Below are positions 3,005 to 20,581 of a stretch of DNA of 52,274 nt, in pieces. The notes under the pieces were generated by a model that was not told the origin of the DNA, did not search any database, and worked only from the letters and a program-made list of their open reading frames with translations. The number at the start of each line of letters is the position of its first letter. Positions within the stretch are counted from its first letter, which is position 1. Both the position numbers and the translations under genes were made by a program. Source of the stretch: a virus; the IMG/VR virus record IMGVR_UViG_3300021964_000099, positions 1 to 52,274 of that record. One strand, written 5' to 3'.

Positions 3005-3313
3005 TTAATTATAGTATGCTACTACAAAGTCACAATTTGTCACATCGACAAAAGCAGCCGTTTCAAATCTTACGCCATCTCCCTCAAAACTCATTACTAG
3101 AGGTTCATTCGCTGCAGTACCCCATTTTAAATGAATTTTAATATCACCAGCCGCGGAAGTATTATCATAAATTTTTACTTCACCGTCTGCCGCACTTGAT
3201 TGACATTGAATAGATTTTATTCTTATTGAACCAAGATTTGTAGCGCTTTCACCCACAAAGCCTTGCAGTCTACCATCTGATGTTAGTGCAACACTTGCTT
3301 TTACATTAGTCAT
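3005..3313 (-). CDS. Small beta-rich virion protein
   Basis: A 102-residue protein (MTNVKASVALTSDGRLQGFVGESATNLGSIRIKSIQCQSS...). Alternating polar and hydrophobic residues suggest a compact beta domain; no catalytic motif is visible. A good Shine-Dalgarno (TTAGGAGATAAT) precedes the ATG at 3313. It is two genes downstream of the major capsid gene, so a head-decoration or minor structural role is inferred. A strong stem-loop lies between it and the upstream gene. Confidence 0.6.
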   Translation of the reverse strand: MTNVKASVALTSDGRLQGFVGESATNLGSIRIKSIQCQSSAADGEVKIYDNTSAAGDIKIHLKWGTAANEPLVMSFEGDGVRFETAAFVDVTNCDFVVAYYN

Positions 3314-3332
3314 ATTATCTCCTAATTAATAA

Positions 3333-3352
3333 TGTGGAGCGTTAGCTCCACA
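3333..3352 (-). terminator. Stem-loop after the 129-aa gene (attenuator or RNA-processing site)
   Basis: An 8-bp perfect stem, TGTGGAGC/GCTCCACA, closes a 4-nt loop. On the transcribed strand the loop is UAAC, a stable UMAC-type tetraloop. The following bases lead into a ribosome-binding site rather than a long U tract, so partial termination or 3'-end protection of the upstream message is more likely than full termination. Confidence 0.5.
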
Positions 3353-3361
3353 TTTAATTTA

Positions 3362-3751
3362 TTATGCTTCTTTAGCAAATGTACCTCTAACTTGAGTAAC
3401 TTGCCATGCTACTACTCCATCAAGCGATGAAATAACAACATAGTCCCCTTGTTTAGAAGTTGCTTTTGTGTTGATTAAGTCTTTATCATCAGTAGAAGAA
3501 CCCGCATAAGTGATTCCGTCTGAAGCGTTTGGACTAATTGTTAAAGTGTTTTGACCGTCTGGTGCTGTATTTACAAATTTAAAAGAATATCCTACAGCAA
3601 TAGCTGGTAGTGTAAATACTACTCCATCAGTTCCACTTAAAAGAGTTTTTCCAGAATCTGCTGTTGTTACAGTGTAATTTGAAGATTTAGTTTCAATATT
3701 TACACCGTCTTTTCCTTCTAGTATTGGACCAGAAAAAGTTGTTGTACCCAT
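3362..3751 (-). CDS. Beta-rich virion protein downstream of capsid gene
   Basis: A 129-residue protein (MGTTTFSGPILEGKDGVNIETKSSNYTVTTADSGKTLL...). The segment NYTVTTADSGKTLL...FTLPA resembles repeats of phage fibre or head-fibre proteins, where a short beta motif is used in trimeric shafts. It lies between the capsid gene and another small beta-rich protein, with structured RNA elements in both flanking gaps. Inferred role: head decoration or head fibre. Confidence 0.55.
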   Translation of the reverse strand: MGTTTFSGPILEGKDGVNIETKSSNYTVTTADSGKTLLSGTDGVVFTLPAIAVGYSFKFVNTAPDGQNTLTISPNASDGITYAGSSTDDKDLINTKATSKQGDYVVISSLDGVVAWQVTQVRGTFAKEA

Positions 3752-3769
3752 TTTTACCTCGTAAGTAAA

Positions 3770-3813
3770 GTTATACCATCTCTACGAGCGTCTGCTAGGG
3801 CAGTCGGTATAAC
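3770..3813 (-). promoter_or_regulatory. Three-way-junction-like RNA element in the capsid operon leader
   Basis: An 8-bp perfect inverted repeat (GTTATACC at 3770-3777, GGTATAAC at 3806-3813) encloses two smaller complementary pairs: CTGC/GCAG and CTC/GAG. On the transcribed minus strand this folds as a compact three-helix junction just upstream of the ribosome-binding site of the 129-aa gene. No hammerhead core bases are present. Function unknown; possibilities are an RNase processing site or a translational control element. Confidence 0.4.
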
Positions 3814-3833
3814 CAGTTATCCTAGTTTATAAT

Positions 3834-3853
3834 GTGGGGGACTAAGCCCCCAC
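3834..3853 (-). terminator. GC-rich stem-loop after the capsid gene
   Basis: A 7-bp stem, GTGGGGG/CCCCCAC, with a 6-nt loop begins 13 bp after the capsid stop codon. It is followed on the transcribed strand by ATTATAAACTAGG rather than a U tract. Its place and shape parallel the stem-loop at 3333-3352. Likely a partial terminator or mRNA stabiliser for the abundant capsid message. Confidence 0.5.
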
Positions 3854-3866
3854 AAGTTAAGAGTAA

Positions 3867-4772
3867 TTATGCTCCCGGTGAACCAAAGATACCTCTAAAG
3901 TCAGAGAACCCGAATGAGTATCTTTCTCTAGATTTGTATCTAACGTTTCCAGTTTCAAAATCGCCTTCCATCTTAGTGGAAATTGGCGCTCTTTGGAAGT
4001 GTTTTAATCCGTTTGGTGCATCAGTTTTAATGAAAAATGCATCTGTATCAGTTAAGTAGTTATTTACTACATAACCTTGAGGAATCATCCCCATGCTACC
4101 GATAGCATTGATATCATTATCAGCAGTACCAACTCTTTGACCAGATTTCATCAATCTTTCAGCAGTGAACTGAAGATTTACTGGAATGATTAACTTTTGA
4201 CCATTTAGAGCGATTTTTAATCCTCTATCGTCAGTTAATCCAGCAATGTCAATCAGTGCTTGCTCTAAAGATGTTTCATTTAGGTCAGCAGATGTTGCTA
4301 GTTCGTTTGAAATGCTACCGCCAGTTGATGGGTGAGCAGTAGAACATAATTCTACGCCGTCTCCACCAGTGAAAGATGAATCAAACGCATTGTTTAATAC
4401 GTTCGCACCTTTTACTTGTTTAGCGTTAGCCATTGAACGAGCTAGTGCTTTTGTGTAACGAGAACTGATTGTGTCGTAAAGGTTATCCTCTACTGCTTCT
4501 TCAGTAATCGCAAAAGCAAGTGCTATAGTTTCGTGAGTGTATCTCGCAGTGAAAGACTCAGTAGCATCGTCGTAATTTACGCCTGTGCCTTCTGGTTTTA
4601 CTTGCGCTGTACCGAAACCGGATAGCATTACTTCTTCTTCGAATGCACGATCAGAAGTTTCTGTATCGAAAATCTGTTCATGCTGGTTTTCGTATCTGGC
4701 ATATTCCAAACCGAACAAAGCGTTTAGGCCCGGTTCAAGCTCTTTTACCAGTTGTGATCTAGAAATTGGCAT
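3867..4772 (-). CDS. Major capsid protein (Mu gpT-like / HK97 fold family)
   Basis: A 301-residue protein. The order of motifs fits the gpT-like major head subunit: N-terminal LVKELEPGLNALFGLEY; central ALARSMANAKQVKGANVLNNAF; LCSTAHPS with a Gly-rich loop; then INGQK-like LIIPVNLQFTAERLMKS; and C-terminal RYKSRERYSFGFSDFRGIFGS. Members assemble the icosahedral head. The gene is preceded by putative scaffold and decoration genes and followed by two strong RNA structures. The start at 4772 has AGGAGG immediately upstream. No protease gene is obvious nearby. Confidence 0.85.
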   Translation of the reverse strand: MPISRSQLVKELEPGLNALFGLEYARYENQHEQIFDTETSDRAFEEEVMLSGFGTAQVKPEGTGVNYDDATESFTARYTHETIALAFAITEEAVEDNLYDTISSRYTKALARSMANAKQVKGANVLNNAFDSSFTGGDGVELCSTAHPSTGGSISNELATSADLNETSLEQALIDIAGLTDDRGLKIALNGQKLIIPVNLQFTAERLMKSGQRVGTADNDINAIGSMGMIPQGYVVNNYLTDTDAFFIKTDAPNGLKHFQRAPISTKMEGDFETGNVRYKSRERYSFGFSDFRGIFGSPGA

Positions 4773-4784
4773 TAAACCCTCCTA

Positions 4785-5348
4785 TTATATTGCAGTGGTC
4801 AGTAACCAAGTATGCTCACCAACGTTAGGTACTACATATGCGTTAGCATTTGCAGAACTTGTATCGCTGTTGTTTGGATCCTTGGAGATACCAACTTGTT
4901 TAAATTGTCCAGAAGTTGTGCTGGTAGAAGTATCTAACTCTTGTGAAGATCTTCCAGAAAGAGTGCTTCCACCCGTTCCTACTAAATCAAAACCACTAAA
5001 GTTCATAGCTGCTGTGCCAGTACCATCATGTTGGACTTCAAAGACGATTCTTGGATCGTCGTATATGTAAGCCACTATATCAGAAGCATTTGTGCTTGCT
5101 GGATAATAGTTACTAAAAGTTGGCTTACTTGTAGTTGGGTCTGTATAGAAACATCCGCCGAAAATGCCTAAAACTACATCGCCCGCGTCAGCAGATTCAA
5201 TTCCTCCTGCTGCAACAGCTTTCACTGCTTGACCATGATAGATCGCAGTGCCATAGTTCGCCGCAATTGCGTATTCGTTTGTTCTAATAAGACCGCCTGT
5301 AAGATGCCTTACGGGTCTAAACCCGAATGCTGCGTCTTTATTTGCCAT
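4785..5348 (-). CDS. Head decoration-like structural protein
   Basis: A 187-residue protein opening MANKDAAFGFRPVRHLTGG, an N-terminus I know from a family of marine phage virion proteins encoded just upstream of the capsid gene. It is Gly-, Ser- and Thr-rich with beta character (GDVVLGIFGGCFY, DIVAYIYDDPRIVFEVQ). Only 12 bp separate it from the capsid start, so the two are probably co-translated at high level. Decoration or capsid-stabilising role inferred from position. Confidence 0.6.
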   Translation of the reverse strand: MANKDAAFGFRPVRHLTGGLIRTNEYAIAANYGTAIYHGQAVKAVAAGGIESADAGDVVLGIFGGCFYTDPTTSKPTFSNYYPASTNASDIVAYIYDDPRIVFEVQHDGTGTAAMNFSGFDLVGTGGSTLSGRSSQELDTSTSTTSGQFKQVGISKDPNNSDTSSANANAYVVPNVGEHTWLLTTAI

Positions 5349-5410
5349 CGTTATATCCTTTTTTTAAAGGGTTAAGTTTTTTTAGTTCGATGGACAAAAG
5401 AGCTAGAAAA

Positions 5411-5875
5411 TTAGTTCTTTTTGTTGCCACCGAAGGTTACACGAGATTGCCTATCTGGTTTAGAGACCGGCATACTGGGGTGTTGTTCCTTTAGTAAATC
5501 ATTTGCGACTGCTTCTTCTTTATCCAGAACTTGCTGTTTAAAGTAAGCCATTCGCTCTTCCACGATTTCTACCGGAATTTTAGCCAGTAATAAACCACCA
5601 ACGCCTATAACACCTTGGTATTTCCCTTCCTGTATTGTCGGATACTGACCGTCGTCGGAATCGGCTCTTACGAGTTCAAAACCTTCTCTTAATCGAGCAT
5701 TCAAATTTTTATTATCTGATTGCCCTAAAGTTTCAGCGCGTATCCACCTATATTTGTACCCATCGGGTGCAGGAGGTGCGTCTAGGGATGACGGGGGTGC
5801 CCATGGTTTCCTACGAGTCGTTTTCTCGCGGGATAAGGCAGCGCGTGGAGTCTTATTTTCATCAATTTTATTCAT
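5411..5875 (-). CDS. Conserved head-module protein
   Basis: A 154-residue protein with YKYRWIRAETLGQSDNKNLNARLREGFELVRAD near the middle, a motif (YRWIR...N...R...G-E-V) I recognise from proteins encoded beside scaffold genes in marine podoviruses. The N-terminal third is basic and Pro-rich, and the C-terminus contains a helical segment (VEERMAYFKQQVLDKEEAVAND). It starts 4 bp after the scaffold-like gene ends. Role unknown; assembly factor or minor capsid protein inferred. Confidence 0.55.
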   Translation of the reverse strand: MNKIDENKTPRAALSREKTTRRKPWAPPSSLDAPPAPDGYKYRWIRAETLGQSDNKNLNARLREGFELVRADSDDGQYPTIQEGKYQGVIGVGGLLLAKIPVEIVEERMAYFKQQVLDKEEAVANDLLKEQHPSMPVSKPDRQSRVTFGGNKKN

Positions 5876-5879
5876 ATGC

Positions 5880-6809
5880 CTACTCCTTCACGTATTTCGC
5901 ATATTCTTCAAGTGGCACACCTAATTTTTTAGCAATCGCTACTTGTGATGGTGTGAGCCTCACTGTTTTGCGTCCAGTTCGTGTGGTCCTGTTAGCAGAA
6001 GCAACTGTTTGGACGGGTTGTTTGCTTCCTTGGACTTCTCCCCCATCGTTAAACTTCTGGGGAAACTCTTGTCTGAGCCTTCTGTCAATCTCTTCGTAGT
6101 ATTCATCAGAAGATGGATTAAATCCTTCTTCCTCCACAAGCTTTTTGTGGATACCAAACGAAGCATATGTCATGGCTTCATCTTTTCCAAACCACTCGTT
6201 CTTCTCGGCCCAAGCTTCTGCTTTAGGGTCCGGTTGAGCCGGTGGCTGTTGTTGTACATTACTTTGTACAGGTTGTTGTATAGTCTGTCCAGCGTTTTCT
6301 TGAGATTTTTCGTATAATTTTCTTTGCTCTTCCGTAGCATTTATACGCTCTTGCTCAATAGCTAGCTTCGCTAACGCTTGATTTGCTGCTACTTGTGCAT
6401 CAACATCACCTTTTGCAACTGCTGCTTTTAAAGCTATTTTAGCTGTTTCTAGTTCTGATTTTACACGACCAGCAAACTCATTAACATAACCATCATCTAG
6501 TTTTGTAAACTTTGTTTGTAAATCATCACGTTCTTTTTTTATTTGTTCAGCAAAACTAAGAGCTTCTTTTTCTCTTCTCTCTGCCTCACGAATTTTGTAT
6601 GTTAGTCTGTCAATACGTTTTTTGACACCGTCACTATACTCTTCGCGTTCATCTTTTTCTTTAACCGGTTCTGCTTTTACTTCAACTTCCGGTTCTGCTT
6701 TTACTTCTTCTTGTTTTGCATCTTTGAGTTCAACATCAACAGAATTTCCAGACGTATCTAGATCAACCATTATGTTGTCCTCTTTCAATGCTTCTTGTGC
6801 TTCGGGCAT
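5880..6809 (-). CDS. Scaffolding-like protein
   Basis: A 309-residue, highly charged, mostly helical protein. The N-terminus is acidic (EVKAEPEVEVKAEPVKEKDERE), residues ~65-165 form a long coiled coil (IDRLTYKIREAERREKEALSFAEQIKKERDDLQ), a Gln/Pro-rich linker follows, and the C-terminal region is basic (RTTRTGRKTVRLTPSQ). This architecture, and the location between portal and capsid, are typical of phage scaffold proteins, which use a basic C-terminus to bind the capsid protein. An alternative start (MVDLDTSG) exists 13 codons in. Confidence 0.7.
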   Translation of the reverse strand: MPEAQEALKEDNIMVDLDTSGNSVDVELKDAKQEEVKAEPEVEVKAEPVKEKDEREEYSDGVKKRIDRLTYKIREAERREKEALSFAEQIKKERDDLQTKFTKLDDGYVNEFAGRVKSELETAKIALKAAVAKGDVDAQVAANQALAKLAIEQERINATEEQRKLYEKSQENAGQTIQQPVQSNVQQQPPAQPDPKAEAWAEKNEWFGKDEAMTYASFGIHKKLVEEEGFNPSSDEYYEEIDRRLRQEFPQKFNDGGEVQGSKQPVQTVASANRTTRTGRKTVRLTPSQVAIAKKLGVPLEEYAKYVKE

Positions 6810-6824
6810 GGGTTCCTCTCCATG

Positions 6825-7244
6825 TTAATGTGTTACTGGCGATAAGATACTTTCGGGGTCTTCTACAACTCCAAGAATTTCATCATCATTTAGTAAGCGT
6901 AGTTCGCCGCCTTCAATGTTAAGACGTGAACCTGCGTATTTGGCAAATATTACCCAATCGTTTTTCTTGCACCATGCACCATTTGGAAAACGACTTTCAT
7001 CGTTATATGCATCTGGTCCTACCTTTAGTACAAGTCCAACATTAGCTGCAATTTGTGTTTCTTGTACTGTTTTATCAGACAAGATAATACCACCTTTGGT
7101 TTTGCCTTTACCTCTATGAGGTAAAATTAAAATCCTCCAACCTGTTGGTTCTGGTAGTTTAGATTCTTCTTTTTTCTTTTTTTCTTTTTTTACTTGTTTA
7201 GCACGCGCTTCTGCAACGTGTGTTGGTAAAATTAAGTTAGTCAT
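6825..7244 (-). CDS. GroES-like co-chaperonin (Cpn10 family)
   Basis: A 139-residue protein. After a Lys-rich N-terminal extension (~35 residues), it carries the Cpn10 order of motifs: GWRILILPHRGKGKTKGGIILSD with the mobile-loop region KTVQETQIAANVG, then LVLKVGP, WVIFAKYAGSRLNIEGGELRLL and a final DDEILGVVED. Cpn10 caps the GroEL chamber; phage versions such as T4 gp31 are known to help fold capsid proteins. Its position directly before scaffold and capsid genes supports that role. The basic extension is unusual for the family. Confidence 0.85.
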   Translation of the reverse strand: MTNLILPTHVAEARAKQVKKEKKKKEESKLPEPTGWRILILPHRGKGKTKGGIILSDKTVQETQIAANVGLVLKVGPDAYNDESRFPNGAWCKKNDWVIFAKYAGSRLNIEGGELRLLNDDEILGVVEDPESILSPVTH

Positions 7245-7431
7245 TTTGCTCCTGTTTCTTTAGCAGGTCCGAGAGTTCCTGTTCGATATAGTTTAAAGTA
7301 TCAAGTTGACCTAAATGATTTTGATAATCATTCCAATCTTTTACTTGATTGTTGATAATTATCTCAGTTAGTTGGGTTTGTCTAGTCCTAATTACTCTAT
7401 ATAGCTTTTCAGCTAAATAAATTGCATCCAT
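7237..7431 (-). CDS. Small helical protein (64 aa)
   Basis: A 64-residue, fully helical-looking protein (MDAIYLAEKLYRVIRTRQTQLTEIIINN...). It overlaps the start of the chaperonin gene by 8 bp and begins 4 bp after the holin gene ends, so it is embedded in a tight operon. Small proteins of this kind are common between holin and structural genes in marine phages. I know no function for it. Confidence 0.55.
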   Translation of the reverse strand: MDAIYLAEKLYRVIRTRQTQLTEIIINNQVKDWNDYQNHLGQLDTLNYIEQELSDLLKKQEQND

Positions 7432-7434
7432 AAG

Positions 7435-7830
7435 TTATTTTTTCTTAAATAAACCTACAGCTCCTTTCGCGCCCTTAATGCCGAAACTTGCTGAGCAGGC
7501 AATATATAATAGATGTTTATAATAATCTGGGAGAGATTGCAAGGCAATAAAACCTTTCTCAATATGCTCTGTCATTCCGGGAAAGAAGACTAGTGTCGCT
7601 GGAGCGAGAAGACAAATTAAAATTAGTTCGTCTTTCCAACTTCCCTTCATTTGATCTACTGCTGATTGTTCCCATGCTACTTTGCCGGCAATTTGATCTT
7701 GTTTCAATTTAGTAGCTGCGCGAACTTCCGTAACTTTTAATTCTGCTTTTGCCTTTTTAGTTTCAACGAAACCTTTGACGCCGTCAGCGACGACGCCAAG
7801 TAAAGGTTTAGCTAAGAGTTGCCAGACCAT
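7435..7830 (-). CDS. Holin, GTA 3-TM type
   Basis: A 131-residue protein that matches the pattern of the gene-transfer-agent 3-TM holin family: N-terminal hydrophobic LLAKPLLGVVADGV, a charged helical linker (KKAKAELKVTEVRAATKLKQDQ), WKDELILICLLAPATLVFFPG as the main membrane segment, then YYKHLLYIACSASFGIKGAKG and a Lys-rich tail. Such holins permeabilise the inner membrane at lysis. A strong ribosome-binding site (GGAGGAGGAG) lies just upstream. Its family is best known from alphaproteobacterial elements. Confidence 0.75.
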   Translation of the reverse strand: MVWQLLAKPLLGVVADGVKGFVETKKAKAELKVTEVRAATKLKQDQIAGKVAWEQSAVDQMKGSWKDELILICLLAPATLVFFPGMTEHIEKGFIALQSLPDYYKHLLYIACSASFGIKGAKGAVGLFKKK

Positions 7831-7833
7831 GGT

Positions 7834-7965
7834 CTAGGCTCCTCCTCCTAATTGACTTAGAATGATGAGTACAATAACTGCTACGATACCCGCCTTTATC
7901 CAGTCCTTCATTTTCCAATCGGACCATTCTTTTAAATGTGCCCATAAGTCTTTCAGTAAATTCAT
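7834..7965 (-). CDS. Single-pass membrane peptide next to holin (43 aa)
   Basis: A short frame (MNLLKDLWAHLKEWSDWKMKD then AGIVAVIVLIILSQ) with start at 7965 and a near-perfect AGGAGG site. An amphipathic Trp-rich N-terminus is followed by one clear membrane segment and GGGA. It ends 3 bp before the holin start. A lysis accessory or antiholin role is plausible from position but not shown by sequence. Confidence 0.6.
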   Translation of the reverse strand: MNLLKDLWAHLKEWSDWKMKDWIKAGIVAVIVLIILSQLGGGA

Positions 7966-7973
7966 TTTACCTC

Positions 7974-8150
7974 CTAATGTTCGGTCAAGTCAAAGTCCGG
8001 ATCGAACTCGACAACCTTTATTGGATCTAAAACTTCCTCAAGTTTTTGTAATGCATCTTTTACATCATGTTCACAATTTAAGCAACCACAATGACATTTA
8101 CCGCCATTACCATGGTGACATTCATGTTCACAATGTCTACAAAGAGCCAT
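7974..8150 (-). CDS. Cys/His-rich zinc-binding-like small protein (58 aa)
   Basis: Start at 8150, coupled to the upstream gene by TAATG; stop at 7974. The first 29 residues hold 7 Cys and 6 His (LCRHCEHECHHGNGGKCHCG then CLNCEHD), enough for at least one and probably two metal sites. The second half is acidic and amphipathic. It does not fit a classical zinc finger. It sits between portal and holin genes. I know no named family. Confidence 0.6.
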   Translation of the reverse strand: MALCRHCEHECHHGNGGKCHCGCLNCEHDVKDALQKLEEVLDPIKVVEFDPDFDLTEH

Positions 8151-8398
8151 TAATGGATTGTCGCCTTTTCATATTCGTGATTCTCTAAATCTTGTGCAAA
8201 TGCATAAAACATTTCTGAGGTTTGTTCTGGCCCCAATATATCTAGATAAATTGTCTTAGCTACAACTAACAATGATGCACTTAGTGCCATTGGGTCTTGT
8301 GGATGTTGATCCGCAAAAGCAAACACTTCATCTAAAATCTTTTTACTTTTTTCTTTTTTTAACAGTTTTTTTCCTTTTTTTAGCAATGTAGCCCCCAT
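8150..8398 (-). CDS. Small helical protein downstream of portal (82 aa)
   Basis: The frame is open up to 8431; I chose the start at 8398 (MGATLLKKGKKLLKKEK) because it reduces overlap with the upstream gene, but 8407 and 8431 are possible. A basic N-terminus precedes two helices (KILDEVFAFADQHPQDPMALSAS, LVVAKTIYLDILGPEQTSEMFYAFA). The stop is fused to the next start as TAATG. Function unknown. Confidence 0.5.
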   Translation of the reverse strand: MGATLLKKGKKLLKKEKSKKILDEVFAFADQHPQDPMALSASLLVVAKTIYLDILGPEQTSEMFYAFAQDLENHEYEKATIH

Positions 8399-8528
8399 CC
8401 TTTGCATATGTAGATATTTTAGCACTTCCAAGAGCTTTTCTCATTTGAGAAGTATCACCTACTTTAGTACCAAACTTTTTCTTATATTTTTTAGCTAATA
8501 ATTTAGCTATTCTAGGATCTAGCGCCAT
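8343..8528 (-). CDS. Small basic protein with GG motif (61 aa)
   Basis: A 61-residue Lys-rich protein (MALDPRIAKLLAKKYKKKFG...). Its C-terminal part holds TYAKDGGYIAKKRKK, one of several 'GG-hydrophobic' tails seen in late proteins of this genome. It overlaps the 3' end of the portal gene by 17 bp. Possibly a DNA-binding or virion-associated peptide; no family known to me. Confidence 0.55.
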   Translation of the reverse strand: MALDPRIAKLLAKKYKKKFGTKVGDTSQMRKALGSAKISTYAKDGGYIAKKRKKTVKKRKK

Positions 8529-10926
8529 CTTTTTGCCTCCTTTGACCTGCTAAAGTTACTTCTGCTCTAAGATCTGCTTGATCTTCTTGACTTTGTAGCT
8601 TTTCTTTGTCCATTTCATCCTTTTGTGCAAGTTTTTGACCTTCAAAGTTAAGTTTTTCTACGTCTAACTCAAGTTTTTTATCAGCATTTTCTTTATTTTG
8701 CTGTATTTCTTGTGCACGAAGCATTAATTCTTGTTGTTTTAGGTCAATAAGTGGATCAGAATCTTTTTTACCAAGGTATTCTTGCTCTTCCGCCACTAAT
8801 TCTTCTGTCATTTGTACAATTCTCTCTGCAATCTCGTTCTCATTTTGTTGTTGAAACTGTTGCATAAGTTGTGGTGGTACTTGTCCACCAAATTGTGCTG
8901 CTTGTTCTTGCATCGCTTCAGCATTTTTCGCTGTTATTTCTTCTCTAGCCATCATTGAAATGTGTTCAGAGATGTGAGCTTGTAAAACACCCATTGCAGG
9001 TGGATTATTTGCTACTAAAAACGAACTCATAAAAGCTTGGTGTGCATTTATATGCGCTGCATGGTTCTGGCCTTGAAATGCTTGTAGCTTCATCATCTGT
9101 AATGACTTAGCATTTTCCATTCCGGGATCTTCTGGTTGTGGTTGTTGAGGAGGAGGAAGTAACATGTCAATATCTCTAACACCAAGTGCTTCATACATAC
9201 GTCTGTATGCTTCATGCATGTTATGCATTTGCGGATTTGATGTAGCCATTTGCATTTGTGTTTGCGCTAAAGTAACGCGCTGAGCCATAGAGAAAATATT
9301 CGGATCAGAAACAGGTAGTATGTCAACCCGTTCATCAAAATCTTGTTGTTTAACAACACGATTGCCACCACGAACAGCATAAGGGTACTCAGCCGGTAAA
9401 CTTTCTGCAAAGACTCTTGATAGTAATTTAAATTCAACTTTTTGTGCGTAATGTAATCGTTTATGAATAGCGTTCATCACTTTCGTGCCGCGTTCCATAA
9501 TTGCCATTGTTGTACCTACAGGATTTGCTTGTGAGCCTTCGCCCATCTTGTTATCGGCAATAGACGCAAAACGTCTACCTGCATCAACAACAAACCCTAG
9601 TAAAGCAAAAAGAGTTTGACTTGGTTCTTTATAAGGAATCAACATCAAGGATTCGCGGATCGCGCCTCCCGGTGCATCTACATCCCGGAACTCTCCGGGT
9701 TGGAGCGGTTGATCATCGTCTCGAACTCGCAACCCTCTTGCCTTAAAACCGGCAGGGAGATTGGACAACGTACCTGCATCAATGAGTTGACGGAGTGCTG
9801 ATGTAGCAGTTCTGGAGAGACCCCCGAGCATGTGGATAAGGCCAAAGCCATAAAAACCAAGACCGGGTAGAAACTTATAGTGAACAAAGTATTGTATCTT
9901 TTTTCGGAGAGGATCATCTTCTCTGTAGTTTCGGTATATGGCCAAAACTTGTCCCGATCCTTCGTCAACAGTAACAACATAAGGCAATTTAATACCAGTA
10001 GGTTCTCCTGTTTGCGAGTCTTTATCTTCGAAACCGGGTATGTCCAAATCGCAATGAAACTCTAAGAGTACTATGTCCTCTGCGTTTTGCGGCGCAGAAA
10101 TCCCATCTAATTCATCGTACTTATCTTGTGCGTCGTTGTTATCAACTTGTGACATCATCACATCAACATCACGGTACATACCGCTTACTTGTTTCTTACG
10201 TAACTCATTGCCCATTGTTTTAATAACATGTGTAATGCGCTCACAAGATTCCATGTCTGTTGATACATAAGGCATCACCACATCTTCTGCTGGTACAAAT
10301 TTTGATACGGCTCTACCTCTTACACTTTCGTAGTAAACTTTTTTAAAGGCACTACCCGCTAGTGGTAAATGAAAAAGCATTTGATCAAGTTCTTGATCGT
10401 ACTCTTCCATCTCATAACTAATTTGATAGTTCATGAACTCTTTCACACGTTGTGATTGCTGTTCAATCTCTGGTGTTATCTCGCCCACTATTTGTGTGCG
10501 GATAGGACCTTCGGGGGGAAGTAACTCTTTATAAGCTTGCGCTTGAAACTGTGTAACTGTCTCTGCTAGTAATGGGTGTGTAACACCGGTTGCACCAGCA
10601 AAGGGTTTTGATCTATCTTCGTATTTAAATCCTAGTAAGTCTAATCCGTCCGTATATGTTTTTAGCCAGTCTGCTCTTGCATCTTTATCATATTCATAAT
10701 CAGCAATTAAACCACCAGCCAATGATTCTAATTCATCATCCGGTATAAGTTCTGCTAGGTTCGCGTTAAATGCTCCTTCTAGTGATGTATCTTCAACAGG
10801 GTTTACGATTGCTGAACCGTCCTCCAACATCATTGCATCACCTTCCATCATTGGTGCGGTGATTTCTTGAGCGGAATCTGGAGCTATCTCTAGATTAATC
10901 TCTTCGTTTACTTTTTCTATAGCCAT
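8512..10926 (-). CDS. Portal protein (P22-like, long podovirus type)
   Basis: An 804-residue protein encoded two small genes and one mid-size gene after TerL. Recognisable segments are the N-terminal acidic region, DWLKTYTDGLDLLGFKYEDRSKPFAGATGVTHPLLAE, a core with AGSAFKKVYYESVRGRAVSKFVPAEDVVMPYVSTDMESCERITH, and NKMGEGSQANPVGTTMAIMERGTKVMNAIHKRLHYAQK in the stem/wing. The C-terminus is a long Gln/Glu/Lys-rich helical barrel-like region. Such long portals occur in P22-like and marine podoviruses. The start directly abuts the upstream stop (10927). Confidence 0.85.
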   Translation of the reverse strand: MAIEKVNEEINLEIAPDSAQEITAPMMEGDAMMLEDGSAIVNPVEDTSLEGAFNANLAELIPDDELESLAGGLIADYEYDKDARADWLKTYTDGLDLLGFKYEDRSKPFAGATGVTHPLLAETVTQFQAQAYKELLPPEGPIRTQIVGEITPEIEQQSQRVKEFMNYQISYEMEEYDQELDQMLFHLPLAGSAFKKVYYESVRGRAVSKFVPAEDVVMPYVSTDMESCERITHVIKTMGNELRKKQVSGMYRDVDVMMSQVDNNDAQDKYDELDGISAPQNAEDIVLLEFHCDLDIPGFEDKDSQTGEPTGIKLPYVVTVDEGSGQVLAIYRNYREDDPLRKKIQYFVHYKFLPGLGFYGFGLIHMLGGLSRTATSALRQLIDAGTLSNLPAGFKARGLRVRDDDQPLQPGEFRDVDAPGGAIRESLMLIPYKEPSQTLFALLGFVVDAGRRFASIADNKMGEGSQANPVGTTMAIMERGTKVMNAIHKRLHYAQKVEFKLLSRVFAESLPAEYPYAVRGGNRVVKQQDFDERVDILPVSDPNIFSMAQRVTLAQTQMQMATSNPQMHNMHEAYRRMYEALGVRDIDMLLPPPQQPQPEDPGMENAKSLQMMKLQAFQGQNHAAHINAHQAFMSSFLVANNPPAMGVLQAHISEHISMMAREEITAKNAEAMQEQAAQFGGQVPPQLMQQFQQQNENEIAERIVQMTEELVAEEQEYLGKKDSDPLIDLKQQELMLRAQEIQQNKENADKKLELDVEKLNFEGQKLAQKDEMDKEKLQSQEDQADLRAEVTLAGQRRQKDGARS

Positions 10927-11718
10927 TTATTTTCCCTTGCCAAAAGTTTGTTTATGCAATTGATCTATTGCTGTTGGACTCATCTTTCGTAAGTTTTCAC
11001 TATCCTTTAAAGAAAGCGCTCCTTCTAATTCCATTATTTTTACTAAAGTATCCATCTTCATAACTGAATCACCAAGACTACCACCATTTGCCATGCCTAC
11101 AGGTCTTGTTATATCATTAATGTTGATTATGCCACCTTTTGCTGCTTTTATTTCTTTTGACCCATCCATTGTACCTAGTGTTTGTTCTAACAAACTCATT
11201 GGTATAAAATCAACAGCGGTAGGGATACCATTTAATATCATCAAAGCACCTCTAGCAATTTTTTTAATTGTAGGGTTATCAGCAAAATCGCCAAATGCTT
11301 TTCTCATGTTATCAAGAAAGGTTTGTTCTTTTATTTCTTTTGGTGCATCCATTTTAACTGCGTCATTAAGAATTTCGTTGGCTGTTTTTAAATCAGTAAT
11401 TCTTTCTGTTTTATTGAATGCTGTTGCAGGTAATTTGTTTCTTGATCTTAACAATTCTATTTGTAATGGTGATTGTCCTTTGTACGCGAGCCGTGGTTCA
11501 TCAGCTTTTGTCACTATCTCATTAAACTCTGCTAGTGCTGTTCTATCTTTACCTACTCTATTTTTAAAATCTGCTTTTTGTTCTTTGGTAATAATATTTT
11601 TAGATTTTGCTAGATCAAATAACATTTGAGGCGTTAGCCCTTTAGCAAATGAAGGGACGTCAAGTAACTCCTTCATTTTAGCTCCCACTGCTCCTTGTGC
11701 CATTTTTGTATCTGCCAT
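10927..11718 (-). CDS. Late protein with GG...ITRPVG motif, function unknown
   Basis: A 263-residue protein between TerL and portal. The frame is open to 11736, but MADTKMAQGAVGAKMKELLD at 11718 is the better start because it follows the upstream stop by one base. The body is helical and Lys-rich; residues ~200-220 carry AAKGGIININDITRPVG followed by MANGGSLGDS. That motif recurs, in variant form, in the proteins at 35.3 kb and 33.3 kb. It could be a portal-associated or internal head protein; no family is known to me. Confidence 0.6.
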   Translation of the reverse strand: MADTKMAQGAVGAKMKELLDVPSFAKGLTPQMLFDLAKSKNIITKEQKADFKNRVGKDRTALAEFNEIVTKADEPRLAYKGQSPLQIELLRSRNKLPATAFNKTERITDLKTANEILNDAVKMDAPKEIKEQTFLDNMRKAFGDFADNPTIKKIARGALMILNGIPTAVDFIPMSLLEQTLGTMDGSKEIKAAKGGIININDITRPVGMANGGSLGDSVMKMDTLVKIMELEGALSLKDSENLRKMSPTAIDQLHKQTFGKGK

Positions 11719-11719
11719 T

Positions 11720-11806
11720 TTATTTTTCCATCGCAATGGCGGCTTTCACCGCCATGCGACTAACCCAGTCAGAGGTGTGTGCGTTTTCGGCCGACTGGTA
11801 ACTCAT
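11720..11806 (-). CDS. Tiny coupled peptide (28 aa)
   Basis: A 28-codon frame (MSYQSAENAHTSDWVSRMAV...) starts at 11806 inside a TAATG overlap with the gene upstream and stops one base before the next start. The two-sided coupling is the main evidence for translation. The sequence is amphipathic with no recognisable motif. Confidence 0.4.
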   Translation of the reverse strand: MSYQSAENAHTSDWVSRMAVKAAIAMEK

Positions 11807-12096
11807 TATGTTTTTCTTGATGCTCCCCAACCTTTGGTTGTTAGCATTTTATTTTTATTCTTGTGGACAGATCCACCGCCCATATATCCTTTTACTTCTC
11901 CGCCTTTAGCATAGTTTCCTTTACCACCTTTACCGGGAATAACTACATCTCTTTTAGGTTTAATTTTAAGTTTAGGTTTAATAGGATTTTCTTGACTATA
12001 TTCCTTTTCAGCAATTCTATAATCACTTTCCATTCTTTGTTTATCAGTTGTACTTTCATACCACTTTTTATATTCTTCCGGCGTCATCATATTCAT
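11806..12096 (-). CDS. Small basic Gly-rich protein between TerL and portal (96 aa)
   Basis: A 96-residue protein starting at the last base of the TerL stop region (coupled at 12096). The N-terminal half is helical and charged; the C-terminal half has GKGGKGNYAKGGEVKGYMGG followed by a conserved-looking tail KMLTTKGWGASRKT. I associate this GWG-x-RKT tail with small late proteins of marine phages. Role unknown; basic charge suggests DNA or capsid contact. Confidence 0.55.
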   Translation of the reverse strand: MNMMTPEEYKKWYESTTDKQRMESDYRIAEKEYSQENPIKPKLKIKPKRDVVIPGKGGKGNYAKGGEVKGYMGGGSVHKNKNKMLTTKGWGASRKT

Positions 12097-13538
12097 TAGT
12101 AGTACTCCCTTGGTTCCGTGATCCGTGGTTCATCGTAGTAGTCATCGGGGAGTTTGACAAAGTTGCCTTGACGGTATCGCATGAGCGCTTGTGTTGTTGA
12201 GTCAACATAATCGTCATGGTCGCCAAAAGGAAAAGCTGCACACTCCTCTATAACGTCCTGTGCCCATCGTTCATCCGGACACCATACTTGGCCCGATTCA
12301 AACATAGGGGCTACTGAGTTTACCCGAACATGTTTATCGTTCCCTCGACTTGGTGTAAAGTTTACAACAGGTATACCTGCTGATCTTAACTCATCTGTCA
12401 ACGGAAGTCCAGAAGCTTTTGCTTCTACAATAACTGTTTCCGGTTCCCAGTATTTATATTTATCCATAGCAATTTTTTTGAGCTCTGTAAACTCCCATCT
12501 TCCTTTTTCTGCATCTAAAAGTATTATTTGAGGGTTTCCCTTACTTGGGTGACTGAACACGCCCCATGTAGTAATCGCGCTATAGTCCGCTGTTTCTTTT
12601 TTACTGAACGCTGTATCATAACTTTGGATGACATGAATCAAGTCCGGTACTTCATCTTCTTCCCATATTTGCCACCACTCACGTTTCAATATAGAGCCCT
12701 CTTCGGCGGTAGGATTTTGCTGCCACTGGGCTTGCCACTTTTGTTCTGTTAAGGAAGCACGGGTCGCGGTCAATGAATCAATGTCCCAGTACTCTGGCCA
12801 AATAGGTTTATTACTTGGTAATATCGCCGGGAACTCAATAAGCTCCCACTGGTCTGCCTTGGGTTCTTTTGCTTGAGCGTCAATCAATCTGCCTGTCAAA
12901 TCTTTCACGGACCACCGGGTCATAACAATAACGATAGCACCGCCCGGCTGTAGACGTTGTCTAGGTCCAGAGGTATACCATTCATACGCACTGTCAAAAG
13001 CTGTTTCGGATAGGGCGTCTTGCTCGGAGTGCGGGTCATCAATGATCAATAAGTCTGCACCACGGCCCGTGATACTTGAACCAACGCCCGCTGCAAAATA
13101 CTCGCCGCCTTTGTTTGTTTCCCAACGGCCTGCCGCTTTACTGTCCGCGGATATCGAAACTTGGTCAAAGACTTGCTGGTAGACTTGACTGTCAATAAGG
13201 TTCTTCATCTTACGTCCAAACCTTACGGCAAGTTCTGTATTGTGTGTGGTTTGAATTATCTTGAGTGTAGGTTTATTGCCAACTAACCAAGATGGAAATA
13301 AGAAAGAAGCAAACTCTGACTTTGTATGTCTAGGTGGCATATTGACAATCAAACGCTTGATTTTACCATCCCGTATGTCCTCAAATTTTTTTGCAATTTT
13401 TTTGTGATGATAACCGGAGACAAAGTCTGGCCAAACATGTCTGACAAAAGGTATGAAGCCTTTTTCAGCAGCATCTAGCTTTTTTAAATGTTCTTGAATT
13501 AGTTGTTCTTGAAGTTGAACTTCAGTTTGAGAAACCAT
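12096..13538 (-). CDS. terL: Terminase large subunit (ATPase/nuclease)
   Basis: A 480-residue DNA-packaging motor. The ATPase domain has the Walker A-like NMPPRHTKSE at ~66-75, Walker B LLIIDDPH at ~163-170 and the coupling motif MTRWS at ~206-210. The C-terminal RNase H-like nuclease shows its acidic residues in SYDTAF (D308), IVEAKASG (E372) and HDDYVDS (D446). The length is normal for the family. It is the first gene of the leftward late module; a sigma70-like promoter lies directly upstream, and the small subunit is encoded 6 kb away. Confidence 0.93.
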   Translation of the reverse strand: MVSQTEVQLQEQLIQEHLKKLDAAEKGFIPFVRHVWPDFVSGYHHKKIAKKFEDIRDGKIKRLIVNMPPRHTKSEFASFLFPSWLVGNKPTLKIIQTTHNTELAVRFGRKMKNLIDSQVYQQVFDQVSISADSKAAGRWETNKGGEYFAAGVGSSITGRGADLLIIDDPHSEQDALSETAFDSAYEWYTSGPRQRLQPGGAIVIVMTRWSVKDLTGRLIDAQAKEPKADQWELIEFPAILPSNKPIWPEYWDIDSLTATRASLTEQKWQAQWQQNPTAEEGSILKREWWQIWEEDEVPDLIHVIQSYDTAFSKKETADYSAITTWGVFSHPSKGNPQIILLDAEKGRWEFTELKKIAMDKYKYWEPETVIVEAKASGLPLTDELRSAGIPVVNFTPSRGNDKHVRVNSVAPMFESGQVWCPDERWAQDVIEECAAFPFGDHDDYVDSTTQALMRYRQGNFVKLPDDYYDEPRITEPREYY

Positions 13539-13577: not shown

Positions 13578-13761
13578 TATTTTCATTCGTACAGATTTAG
13601 GGGTGTGGGTATGTCTGGATTAGTGTTACGCGCAACTATGTAGGAGTCCCATTATACTATTTAGGGGGGCCCCCGAAGGGGGTGCGACCTTTTGCCATAC
13701 CATATGTAGTATGCACCAAGATCCTATCTACTAGATATAGTACCCCCCGAAGGGGGGCGAG

Positions 13762-13770
13762 TTATCCACA
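13762..13770 (+). promoter_or_regulatory. DnaA box (TTATCCACA)
   Basis: A perfect match to the strong bacterial DnaA box, placed directly after a GC hairpin of the repeat array. A second perfect copy in the opposite orientation lies 370 bp away and a third at 20.57 kb; all are intergenic. Confidence 0.55.
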
Positions 13771-13828
13771 GCCACTAGATATGGTACACGGACCGCGAAG
13801 CGGGCCACAAGATGTAGTATGTCCAGAC

Positions 13829-13856
13829 CAAAAAAAACACCCCCCGAAGGGGGTGC
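13829..13856 (-). terminator. Rho-independent terminator (minus strand)
   Basis: Read on the minus strand: a C-run, TTC, G-run hairpin with a cUUCGg-type loop, followed by TG and a run of eight T. It lies 20 bp after the stop of the gene at 13876 and would insulate it from the terL promoter. Of the similar hairpins in this array, only this one has a U tract. Confidence 0.75.
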
Positions 13857-13875
13857 GACACTATGTCACATTGAC

Positions 13876-14052
13876 TTAGTTTATATAGAGATCCTTATCT
13901 TGCCAATAAAATTTAGAAGAATCATAGTCATACTTATTTAAGACAAGAAGCAAATTAGATTTAGTAACTTGAATATATGCGCCATCTTCTTCGCTAATCA
14001 TTACCCAAGCAAAAACCATGTCAGCTTTTTTAATCATTTGTTTCACGGTCAT
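13876..14052 (-). CDS. Small protein inside the repeat array (58 aa)
   Basis: I place the start at 14052 (MTVKQMIKKADMVFAWVMIS) because it has AGAAAGGATAAT directly upstream, the same ribosome-binding sequence as other early genes here; the frame is open to 14073. The protein has a helical N-terminus followed by a beta-like segment (GAYIQVTKSNLLLVLNKYDYD). It has its own promoter-like -10 element and terminator. No family known to me. Confidence 0.6.
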   Translation of the reverse strand: MTVKQMIKKADMVFAWVMISEEDGAYIQVTKSNLLLVLNKYDYDSSKFYWQDKDLYIN

Positions 14053-14078
14053 ATTATCCTTTCTGTTTTTCATATCCT

Positions 14079-14097
14079 ATCTTTATAGGATAATATA
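14079..14097 (-). promoter_or_regulatory. Early promoter -10 region
   Basis: The minus strand reads ATATTATCCTATAAAGATA. The same ATCCTATAAAGATA block recurs upstream of the DUF932 gene (16384-16397). A clear -35 hexamer at canonical spacing is not obvious (TTTACG lies 15 bp upstream), so this may be an extended -10 type promoter. Confidence 0.4.
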
Positions 14098-14137
14098 AGA
14101 TGCGTAAACTATATAATTATCGTAACTTATAATTAAC

Positions 14138-14146
14138 TGTGGATAA
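14138..14146 (-). promoter_or_regulatory. DnaA box (reverse orientation)
   Basis: TGTGGATAA on the plus strand is the exact complement of TTATCCACA. It lies in the AT-rich segment between the small gene and the second half of the repeat array. Confidence 0.5.
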
Positions 14147-14438
14147 CTTTATTTATACCAGACCTAGTACCCCCCGAAGGGGGGCTGCGACAATTGGTCA
14201 CATTGACACAATATGTGGTACGTGGAACGCGGAGCGTGGCACAAGATGTAGTATGCCCCCGAAGGGGGCTGCGACGTTATGTCACATTGACACAAGATAT
14301 AGATCCCCCGAAGGGGGTGCGACATATTGTCACATACTAGATGTAGTAGGTCAACGGATCATGGACATACCACCAGTAGTACCCCGAAGGGGTGCGACAA
14401 TTTGTCACATTGACATTTTGATTGATCTATGATCGCGG

Positions 14439-14831
14439 TTATTTCTTCGCGGTTAAAAAATCTAATAATAGATGATATGATCGCGGTTCAAATTCTAAGG
14501 AACATGGATAATCAAAACCATTTTTTAAGAGTTCCCGCCCTTTGTCACCGTCGTATAGTTTTATGATCTTGCGTCGCGGTGCTTGGACAATATAAAAGTT
14601 ATTAGGATTATTTGAAAAGTTCTTATAATTCCAAGATATTTGTAAGGGGCTAATATTAATTCTATTTTGTTTTATTATTGTTTTACACTCTAACCAGAAA
14701 GAAAAACCATTATAAACGCCGTATAAATCGGGTATTCCCCCGCCGTGTCTGTTTTCAATTCTTGACCAGAATACCTGTTTTAATTCTCTAAATATCTGTT
14801 TATAGAAAAGCGTTTCGGGTTTTGTAGACAT
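14439..14831 (-). CDS. PD-(D/E)XK nuclease, VRR-NUC / resolvase-like
   Basis: A 130-residue protein. The core reads RHGGGIPDLYGVYNGFSFWLECKT: the Asp of GIPDLYG and the ECK triad match the D...(D/E)XK catalytic pattern, and SPLQISWNYK downstream matches the helix after the core in VRR-NUC-type enzymes. Members cut branched or damaged DNA. It is in the early-type leftward block, just after a repeat array and before a terminator. Its role could be junction resolution or host-DNA degradation. Confidence 0.7.
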   Translation of the reverse strand: MSTKPETLFYKQIFRELKQVFWSRIENRHGGGIPDLYGVYNGFSFWLECKTIIKQNRINISPLQISWNYKNFSNNPNNFYIVQAPRRKIIKLYDGDKGRELLKNGFDYPCSLEFEPRSYHLLLDFLTAKK

Positions 14832-18140: not shown

Positions 18141-18418
18141 TTTATTAAACACCCATTTTCAAAAAAGTATTTTGCATTTTTATCAATGCTCTCTTTTATT
18201 GTTTTGTATTTATTCACGGTGTCTTTATCACAAGACCAACAAAGAGATATTTTATATAAATCATCAACAGGATAATCTAACAATTTTTTTAAAAAATTAA
18301 TTAATGTTTTTTCATTTCGTAGACTTTCTTTTGGAAGGGAACAATCAAACCAATCTTGATCATGATTGTTAAAAGAGGCTATAACATTTAATTTTAAATC
18401 TTTTATTGTATTATTCAT
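18137..18418 (-). CDS. Hypothetical protein (93 aa)
   Basis: A 93-residue protein (MNNTIKDLKLNVIASFNNHD...) with three Cys, two of them close together (SLCWSCDKD). It overlaps the stop of the GcrA-like gene by 4 bp and the next start likewise, so it is part of one leftward operon. Function unknown. Confidence 0.5.
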   Translation of the reverse strand: MNNTIKDLKLNVIASFNNHDQDWFDCSLPKESLRNEKTLINFLKKLLDYPVDDLYKISLCWSCDKDTVNKYKTIKESIDKNAKYFFENGCLIK

Positions 18419-18618
18419 AATATTGCTCTTTCTTTTTTTCTCGTATACTTTGAGAATGGGTCGGGTGTATATCCGTTCATAACTTTCTCACGGTAAAATT
18501 GTCCTATCACAGAATTTTTTGATCTATGCAACATTTTCCCAACGGTTGCGTAAGAATGTTTTTTTAATAATTGTCTTGCTAATTCTGTTTCATTTTCTGT
18601 CCATTTTTTTCTTTTCAT
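18415..18618 (-). CDS. GcrA-like / Myb-like HTH DNA-binding protein (67 aa)
   Basis: A 67-residue protein. KWTENETELARQLLKKHSYATVGKMLHRSKNSVIGQFYREKV fits the W-T-E...L...S...IG..L..S.N.VIG..HR pattern of GcrA, a DNA-binding cell-cycle regulator typical of alphaproteobacteria, and of related HTH proteins in their phages. It is the first gene of the leftward early operon and starts 16 bp from a dyad (18634-18650) identical in type to those in the 13.6-14.4 kb array. It could regulate its own operon, the array or host methylation-dependent promoters. Binding is not shown. Confidence 0.6.
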   Translation of the reverse strand: MKRKKWTENETELARQLLKKHSYATVGKMLHRSKNSVIGQFYREKVMNGYTPDPFSKYTRKKERAIL

Positions 18619-18633
18619 TCTATCCCTTTCTCT

Positions 18634-18656
18634 TGCGACATTATGTCACGTTGACA
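18634..18656 (+). promoter_or_regulatory. Seventh dyad copy plus TTGACA, between divergent early operons
   Basis: TGCGACA-TTA-TGTCACG is followed directly by TTGACA (18651-18656), as in the distant array. TTGACA could be a plus-strand -35 element; the best -10 at 17 bp (TTATCC) is weak, so activation may need the bound protein. Confidence 0.55.
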
Positions 18657-19765: not shown

Positions 19766-19840
19766 ATGTTTGTTTTTATTTTTTTTAAAGTTTTTTTATG
19801 GTTAGCTATTTTAGTTATTCTGCTTCTTCTATCTCTTTGA
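19766..19840 (+). CDS. Possible tiny membrane peptide (24 aa)
   Basis: A 24-residue, almost wholly hydrophobic peptide (MFVFIFFKVFLWLAILVILL...) begins one base after the previous stop. It overlaps the 3' end of terS on the other strand. T-rich DNA alone can give such a frame, so support is weak. Confidence 0.3.
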   Translation: MFVFIFFKVFLWLAILVILLLLSL

Positions 19841-20315
19841 TCTCTTTGATCTCTACACCGATAGCTTCACCGTTGATAACATTATGATCTCTAATCTCTT
19901 TGAGTTTAGCTTCAAGTTCTGGTCTAGTCATGTTATCAAGTGAGGCTGTCACAACTTCTTTACGATCAATATAAAAACCCGCAAGTTGACCGCGACGATA
20001 TTCGGCATTTATTGCAGGCCCCATTTGTCCATTAGTTACAGCGATATCACGCAACCGTGACAATTCTCTAGAGTGTTTTACAAAATCTAACTTACTAGCT
20101 TCTGCATATTCACGCTGTAGATTTTCTATAGCTTCTACAACTTTAGGGAAATACTTGGGATTTCTTAGATTACAAGCCTGTGTGACAGCAGATTTCTCTG
20201 AATAACCCGCCTGTCTTGCACATTCTGTCTGTGTAAGTCTTCCGTTTTCTTTGACAAATATTTCTACAAAGGCTCTTTGTTTAGGTGTTAGCTCACCATT
20301 TCTAGTCTTAGGCAT
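19815..20315 (-). CDS. terS: Terminase small subunit
   Basis: A 166-residue protein. LTPKQRAFVEIFVKENGRLTQTECARQAGYSEKSAVTQACNLRNP is the N-terminal HTH region typical of phage small terminases (LTPKQ-x-FV-EY...N-T-A...AGYS-x-K-A). The rest is helical, with oligomerisation-type heptads and an acidic C-terminus (VEIKEIKEIEEAE) that could contact TerL. It recognises phage DNA for packaging. It is alone on the minus strand between rightward early genes, 6 kb from terL, beside the iteron region. Confidence 0.8.
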   Translation of the reverse strand: MPKTRNGELTPKQRAFVEIFVKENGRLTQTECARQAGYSEKSAVTQACNLRNPKYFPKVVEAIENLQREYAEASKLDFVKHSRELSRLRDIAVTNGQMGPAINAEYRRGQLAGFYIDRKEVVTASLDNMTRPELEAKLKEIRDHNVINGEAIGVEIKEIKEIEEAE

Positions 20316-20342: not shown

Positions 20343-20581
20343 TCTGTATAGTATTATTTCATTCAATATTATAATATTAAATATTAAATTGCATTCAAAA
20401 AAGACATATGGTGAGAGTTACGTTTGGTTACGTATAGGTTACGTGGTCAAAGTAACGATATTATTGTTATATTTCAATGAATTATTGCTATGGTTACGTG
20501 GTTACGTCATATTTGTAAAAATAAAAATTATTTTTTTTTATTTTAAAATAAAATTACTATACAGAGTGAAAGTTATCCACA
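20343..20581. other. Candidate replication origin: iterons, inverted repeat, DnaA box
   Basis: An 11-bp inverted repeat (TCTGTATAGTA at 20343-20353, TACTATACAGA at 20555-20565) encloses an AT-rich segment with palindrome AATATTATAATATT (20365-20378) and five direct GTTACGT copies (20417, 20427, 20438, 20493, 20501); the first three are 10-11 bp apart, one helical turn. A perfect DnaA box TTATCCACA lies at 20573-20581. This is the layout of an iteron origin. As it is directly upstream of terS, a packaging (pac) site is the main alternative. Confidence 0.55.

Follow-up and report, generated by a model that had tools for sequence, protein, structure and literature searches.

Functional signals that consist of folded single-stranded DNA are few in double-stranded DNA phages, and the promoters of phage N4 are the textbook case. 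The promoter of the N4 virion RNA polymerase (vRNAP) is a short GC-rich hairpin on the template strand, in which a 3-base loop containing a sheared G.A pair is closed by a C-G pair; the stem bases are partly free, provided that pairing is kept (PMC4496689). More generally, the exceptionally stable DNA mini-hairpins are those with GNA and GNNA loops on G-C stems (PMC4686876). The archaeo-eukaryotic-type (AEP) primase RepB′ of plasmid RSF1010 recognises a hairpin in single-stranded DNA, ssiA (PMC4434180). In a comparative paper on 80 HTVC023P-type genomes, the main text contains no mention of intergenic repeats or non-coding elements (PMC9599517).

The locus described here lies in a virus record of 52,274 nucleotides, the whole of which was analysed and is referred to as the window. 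It is a composite array of hairpins and dyads, flanked by terL and a nuclease-like gene of family phrog_2165. The closest isolated phages by terL are HTVC023P and HTVC027P (61–64% identity), and the nearest isolated or named phages as a whole are the HTVC023P-type pelagiphages and two uncultured relatives (61–66%); DNA searches against named phages gave no match, or a single chance-level match. In contrast to the window, the terL-proximal regions of the cultured HTVC023P and HTVC027P have neither the dyad termed A below nor C(GNA)G hairpins.

The array hairpins resemble the N4 promoters in that, on one strand, a C-G pair closes a loop of three bases containing a sheared G.A. They differ in being clustered, about 3–9 of them with dyads in one island, and no run of A followed by C, as at the N4 start site, was identified in the array. 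N4 also has a giant virion RNA polymerase, whereas none was found here (the longest ORF encodes 999 aa, a PDB search with this protein gave nothing credible, and the genome may extend beyond the window). The likeness to ssiA and ssiB of RSF1010 lies in a one-strand single-stranded DNA hairpin and an AEP primase encoded in the same replicon (PMC4434180). However, RSF1010 has one ssi per strand while the array has many hairpins on one strand, and the phage primase has no detectable sequence similarity to any solved AEP primase, a PDB search giving nothing credible. With DnaA-box and iteron origins the array shares tandem, orientation-fixed dyads, DnaA boxes, an AT-rich flank and a single locus per genome; it differs in the GC hairpins that stand between its dyads, in having no replication initiator gene next to it, and in DnaA boxes that only the closest relatives share. 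Literature searches, in which subscription journals were thinly covered, found no description of such an array, in line with the preliminary description of this DNA, which knew of no phage element with this structure.

Architecture of the array

The array occupies positions 13664–14415 (+ strand), about 750 bp of non-coding DNA interrupted by one 65-aa ORF (13876–14073, −), which has no family match and separates two array blocks. As noted in the preliminary description, this tiny gene lies within the array and terL (12096–13538, −; phrog_38, E 3e-112) adjoins it; the other flank is the nuclease-like gene (14439–14831, −; phrog_2165). The label ‘nuclease-like’ reflects the PHROG family and the weak resemblance of one homologue to a Holliday-junction-resolvase family; no Pfam family matched.

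Nine C(GNA)G triloop hairpins with perfect stems of 4–6 bp are present in the array; the loop is GAA in eight and GGA in one. In every case the GNA loop belongs to the + strand, and the coding strand of terL is the other one. Each of the nine CGNAG words of the region lies in a perfect stem, compared with a mean of 0.03 and a maximum of 2 in dinucleotide shuffles (n = 2000), and no further C(GNA)G hairpin occurs elsewhere in the 52 kb window. Two kinds of dyad accompany the hairpins. Dyad A is the 17-bp sequence TGCGACA-N3-TGTCACA, present in the region in five good copies (shuffle mean 0.0005) and one degenerate copy. Dyad B is an approximate 14-bp dyad, TACTANATRTAGTA, of which the word AGATRTAGTA is the right half; its arms pair at 5/5 positions in the copies at 13729 and 14335 and at 3–4/5 in the remaining ones. 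The strict form of AGATRTAGTA is found seven times on the + strand, always within the region, and twice on the − strand elsewhere, besides looser ones.

All elements are on the + strand unless stated. The first block opens with hairpin 1 (13670–13682, 5-bp stem, GAA, as are all hairpins but the sixth), followed by the degenerate dyad A TGCGACCTTTTGCCATA (13683–13699), with no hexamer after it, and two copies of dyad B, TACCATATGTAGTA (13698–13711) and TACTAGATATAGTA (13729–13742, perfect 5-bp arms). Hairpin 2 (13743–13757, 6-bp stem) precedes a perfect DnaA-box-like 9-mer, TTATCCACA (13762–13770), which is found at the same place in relatives L003, L004, L012 and L018. A dyad B variant (13773–13786), hairpin 3 (13793–13803, 4-bp stem) and the dyad B variant CACAAGATGTAGTA (13806–13819) follow, and the block closes with hairpin 4 (13841–13853) adjoining a dyad A (13854–13870) that continues into TTGACT. 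Beyond the small ORF, a second perfect DnaA-box-like 9-mer (14138–14146, −) is followed by hairpin 5 (14170–14184), a dyad A with TTGACA (14186–14202), a dyad B variant (14207–14220), hairpin 6 with its C(GGA)G loop (14227–14237) and a second copy of CACAAGATGTAGTA (14240–14253). Hairpin 7 (14255–14269) adjoins a dyad A with TTGACA (14270–14286), and hairpin 8 (14305–14317) adjoins a dyad A (14318–14334) that runs directly into the dyad B TACTAGATGTAGTA (14335–14348, perfect 5-bp arms). Finally, hairpin 9 (14381–14393) overlaps by one base the last dyad A (14393–14409), again with TTGACA.

The inventory of the preliminary description is thus largely borne out: nine GC hairpins closing on GAA or GGA, five good dyads and a degenerate one, AGATRTAGTA-like units and two perfect DnaA boxes are all in the region, although two more perfect boxes lie elsewhere in the window, at 20573 and 9839. 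Its statement that dyad A is usually followed by TTGACA is slightly generous, since within the array this is so for only three copies, the others having TTGACT (one), TACTAG (one) or, in the degenerate copy, none. One further dyad A with TTGACA stands outside the array (18634–18650, +), where it precedes by 16 bp the start codon of a Myb/D5-like gene that encodes 67 aa (18415–18618, −).

A hairpin fold conserved on one strand

Relatives were collected by scanning viral contigs with TerL alone, which gave 80 loci, most of the contigs compared being fragments. Within the arrays of these relatives 85 of 111 CGNAG words lie in perfect stems, as against 1 of 174 elsewhere, with no stem assumed; since the phages are related, the hairpin counts given here are not independent events. 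The word of the opposite strand, CTNCG, is in a perfect stem in only 2 of 34 cases. When GC-rich triloop hairpins were collected from 18 upstream regions with no loop assumed, 88 of about 115 proved to be C(GNA)G.

The stem sequences vary across relatives (CCCCC, GCCGCC, GTGGC, GCACCC, ACGC and CCGC), while the loop and the closing pair are constant. Among 35 distinct hairpin sequences the stem pairs are exchanged, with the G-C pair occurring in either orientation at stem positions 2–5 and some A-T pairs; the loops are GAA in 15, GGA in 11, GCA in 8 and GTA in 1. Comparison of the relatives shows, as far as sequence can, that the hairpins are conserved as structure, with compensatory changes in the stem and on one strand only. 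Since the shape is kept while the sequence changes, it is probably the folded DNA itself that works, and we infer that the hairpins act as folded single-stranded DNA.

The departures from perfect pairing are of a particular kind. In stems with one non-Watson-Crick pair A.G is the commonest, without enrichment of G.T. Tandem G.A stems of the type CGAG/CGAG, enclosing GAA or GGA loops, are made by five distinct arms. The A.G departures and the tandem G.A stems fit DNA better than RNA and so favour folded DNA. In the wider set of phages, described below, GNA and GNNA hairpins both adjoin dyads.

Distribution and gene neighbourhood

Absence of the array from the same locus in close relatives, which the preliminary description had named as evidence against its proposal, was not observed: where the upstream sequence of a close relative is long enough, the array is in most cases present immediately upstream of terL, with about 3–9 C(GNA)G hairpins, dyads and dyad B words. 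It is nevertheless clade-specific, since some relatives at 85–90% terL identity lack it (for example L033, a 58 kb contig). In such array-less relatives other GC-rich repeats occupy the position of the array, and the AT-rich leader and the TATTTAGGGG words are retained. These words (CCCCTAAATA on the terL strand) are found at 13598–13667 in the window and recur upstream of terL in array-bearing and array-less relatives alike; they are possibly a late-promoter or terminase-related motif. Unit number and stem sequence differ quickly even between L003 and L005, whose terL genes are about 98% identical, and the array gains and loses genes. A reading frame similar to the 65-aa ORF is visible in L003, whereas other relatives have a different gene or none. 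In the case of L128 (IMGVR_UViG_3300008218_000203), the whole contig is a 100% perfect inverted palindrome centred at about 6720, with the fold-back point at a TGTCACATGTGACA site beside the array; this is probably an assembly artefact.

For dyad A, an adjoining hairpin on the 5′ side is seen in 4/4 window cases and 18/19 cases in relatives, and one on the 3′ side in none of either. To look beyond terL relatives, viral contigs were scanned blind for dyad A with TTGACA (TGCGACANNNTGTCGCATTGACA), which gave at least 120 stretches; GCCGAGCGAAGCGAGG was discarded as a specific search pattern, being too common in viral contigs. Among the matches listed in this wider set, a hairpin is 5′ of dyad A in 39/150 cases and 3′ in 1, and CGNAG is in a stem in 90/296 cases near dyads and 55/1119 far from them, compared with 4/202 for CTNCG near dyads. 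Clustering of the neighbouring proteins places terL at no fewer than 68 loci, terS at at least 43 and a nuclease-like protein at at least 75. Among the matches listed, the commonest gene order is terS / nuclease / dyads / terL, the dyad nearly always points away from terL, and one nuclease homologue weakly matches a Holliday-junction-resolvase family. On contigs of 46–48 kb the dyads are limited to a single island beside terL.

Among the matches listed, the blind scan thus mostly recovered the gene neighbourhood in which the preliminary description had proposed a search of related phages, and with the relatives it supports a multi-copy element of cis-acting order. The comparison shows, within what sequence can establish, a cis-acting DNA element of tandem modules whose order is kept beside terL, at a single locus in each genome; the element is conserved within a phage clade and, with altered detail, in a wider group. 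The conserved fold, module order and gene neighbourhood lead us to conclude that these loci form an undescribed family of composite cis-acting arrays, in which the hairpins seem to be selected as one-strand folded DNA. Selection for a mini-hairpin fold on one strand, with many repeats at one terL-side locus, emerges here from genome comparison alone.

A Pelagibacteraceae single-cell genome includes one phage contig that has three dyads in this island, and nowhere else in that genome does the dyad occur. This links the phage group to SAR11, and the window phage is probably a marine phage that infects SAR11 bacteria; the group is apparently widespread.

Several candidate readers of dyad A were considered. 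The 67-aa Myb/D5-like protein was rejected because a dyad precedes its gene in the window and in L006 but is missing there in L013, L017 and L087, and because G004, G005 and G015 all lack a homologue. Among the window genes, no protein other than a divergent endolysin is common to the dyad carriers compared and missing from the array-less relative G015. A host regulator was sought through bacterial sites carrying the dyad with TTGACA, and none was identified; for nosZ, the TTGACA can be read as belonging to a TTGAC-N4-GTCAA box. Such sites include two tandem dyads A with TTGACA at one intergenic site in about 20 Pandoraea chromosomes (L320–L342) and occurrences in two gammaproteobacterial MAGs. 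In L362, a gammaproteobacterial MAG contig, five dyad A sites lie within 10 kb (3212–12268), some followed by promoter-like sequence, in what looks like a small regulon. In L096, L149 and L156, perfect 37-bp tandem units, TGCGACATCTTGTCGCATTGACACAAGATATAGTGGG, are iteron-like and lie about 270–310 bp upstream of terL.

Possible functions of the array

The reading we prefer, with a probability of roughly 0.36, is that the array is a phage replication-origin or priming region using ssi-like hairpins. It is based on the analogy with the RepB′ hairpin and on the AEP-type primase encoded in the phage (30348–31901; PF22548, phrog_21866). Each module consists of a C(GNA)G hairpin on a fixed strand, then directly dyad A, often with TTGACA, with the 14-bp dyad B interleaved. 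Once supercoiling or replication opens the duplex, the hairpins would act in their folded single-stranded form, and the site may be opened or regulated by dimeric DNA-binding proteins bound to the dyads. The hairpins could then serve as single-strand initiation signals for the phage primase or a helicase loader and, being fixed on one strand, would cause synthesis to begin in one direction, with host DnaA possibly assisting in the closest relatives.

This reading is supported by the strand-locked fold, by the single island per genome with near-fixed orientation relative to terL, by the two perfect DnaA boxes kept in L003, L004, L012 and L018, and by the family A DNA polymerase and helicases that the phage encodes besides the primase. 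It is weakened by several results. DnaA boxes, conserved in the closest relatives only, are not enriched near dyads among the matches listed in the wider set (9 in 153 kb vs 34 in 773 kb); the origin proposed in the preliminary description is still a candidate. Gene-normalised third-position skew shows no clear change across the array, and GC skew was uninformative. The array-less G015 also has primase, polymerase and helicases, so that the replication genes do not co-vary with the array, and in the window these genes are more than 10 kb away from it; the primase, as noted above, is unmatched among solved structures.

Independently of the process served, we put forward tentatively that the array belongs to a new class of cis-element in phages, that its signal is the strand-locked series of GNA/GNNA mini-hairpins rather than base sequence, together with operator-like dyads, and that the reader is other than an N4-type RNA polymerase, for example the phage primase, a helicase loader, a resolvase or the host SSB. 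If confirmed, the array would be a second independent system in which extrusion of DNA hairpins can be studied in vivo, and would serve as a landmark in finding how abundant, barely cultured phages begin replication or late transcription.

A control region of the terL (late) operon is a close, slightly less probable alternative to the origin or priming region; here dyads A and B would be operators for regulators of the phage or the host, and the template-strand hairpins structure-dependent promoters or insulators. The island lies directly upstream of terL, a dyad also stands upstream of the Myb/D5-like gene (at 18634), and the template strand of terL is the one that bears the GNA loop, the same orientation as in the N4 vRNAP hairpins. 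Moreover, about six outlier phages (L113, L137, L140, L142, L150 and L163) have dyad A immediately next to a canonical TTGACA-N17-TATAAT/TATACT promoter, so that it can sit as an operator would, which agrees with the regulatory role suggested in the preliminary description. Within the arrays, however, the −10 box that a sigma70 promoter would need 16–18 bases beyond TTGACA is not found above chance, the array of the window does not have it, and TTGACA points away from terL. The window also has no single-subunit RNA polymerase signature, the sole credible motif-B match being the family A DNA polymerase. As to N4, the comparison drawn in the preliminary description holds for the hairpin fold and fails for the base contacts: N4 requires a purine at the centre of the loop (−11), where the array hairpins often have C (GCA in 8 of 35, besides GTA in 1), and G at −8, whereas 24/35 have C-G next to the closing pair. 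Membership of the N4 promoter type was rejected on these two positions and on the missing polymerase signature.

Cleavage of extruded hairpins by the neighbouring resolvase-like nuclease or by terminase, starting packaging, replication or recombination in the manner of a cos or pac site, appears improbable. An extruded inverted repeat forms a four-way junction. One nuclease homologue has the weak resolvase match, and in most of the blind-set loci listed the array lies between the nuclease-like gene and terL, often with terS beside the nuclease. Yet array-less relatives retain terL, terS and the nuclease (52% identical in G015). Furthermore, TerS of the window (19815–20315) is 80% identical to that of the dyad-less G015 and only 39–40% identical to those of the dyad-bearing G004 and G005. 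Dyad A does not, then, follow TerS; it was rejected as the TerS recognition site, and a packaging site read through the dyad, as envisaged in the preliminary description, is disfavoured.

It is very improbable that the array is a fast-evolving repeat region, REP- or MITE-like or recombination junk, with no function of its own. The rapid turnover of units and stems between L003 and L005, the gene swaps within the array and the other GC-rich repeats at the site in array-less relatives would suit this reading, but the strand lock, the near-invariant GNA loops and the fixed hairpin-dyad order and orientation in a wide set of phages speak against it, and the window genes examined include no transposase. 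Least probable of all is a structured non-coding RNA or mRNA leader in which the hairpins act as RNA: the fold of the region, computed with DNA energies, is for both strands far more stable than that of shuffled sequence (z −5.4 and −4.1), but Rfam gave a single sub-threshold match at chance level (E 0.99), G.T wobbles, tolerable in RNA, are not enriched among the stem departures, the strand that shows loop conservation is the one opposite the terL transcript, and the dyads suit duplex-binding proteins. An array of intrinsic terminators, in which each GC hairpin would lead into a T run, was also rejected: after the hairpins the + strand has TGCGACA or other non-T sequence, and the − strand mostly TAC or CAT. 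The exception is the hairpin at 13841, which is followed by TGTTTTTTTT on the − strand and could be a terminator-like site.
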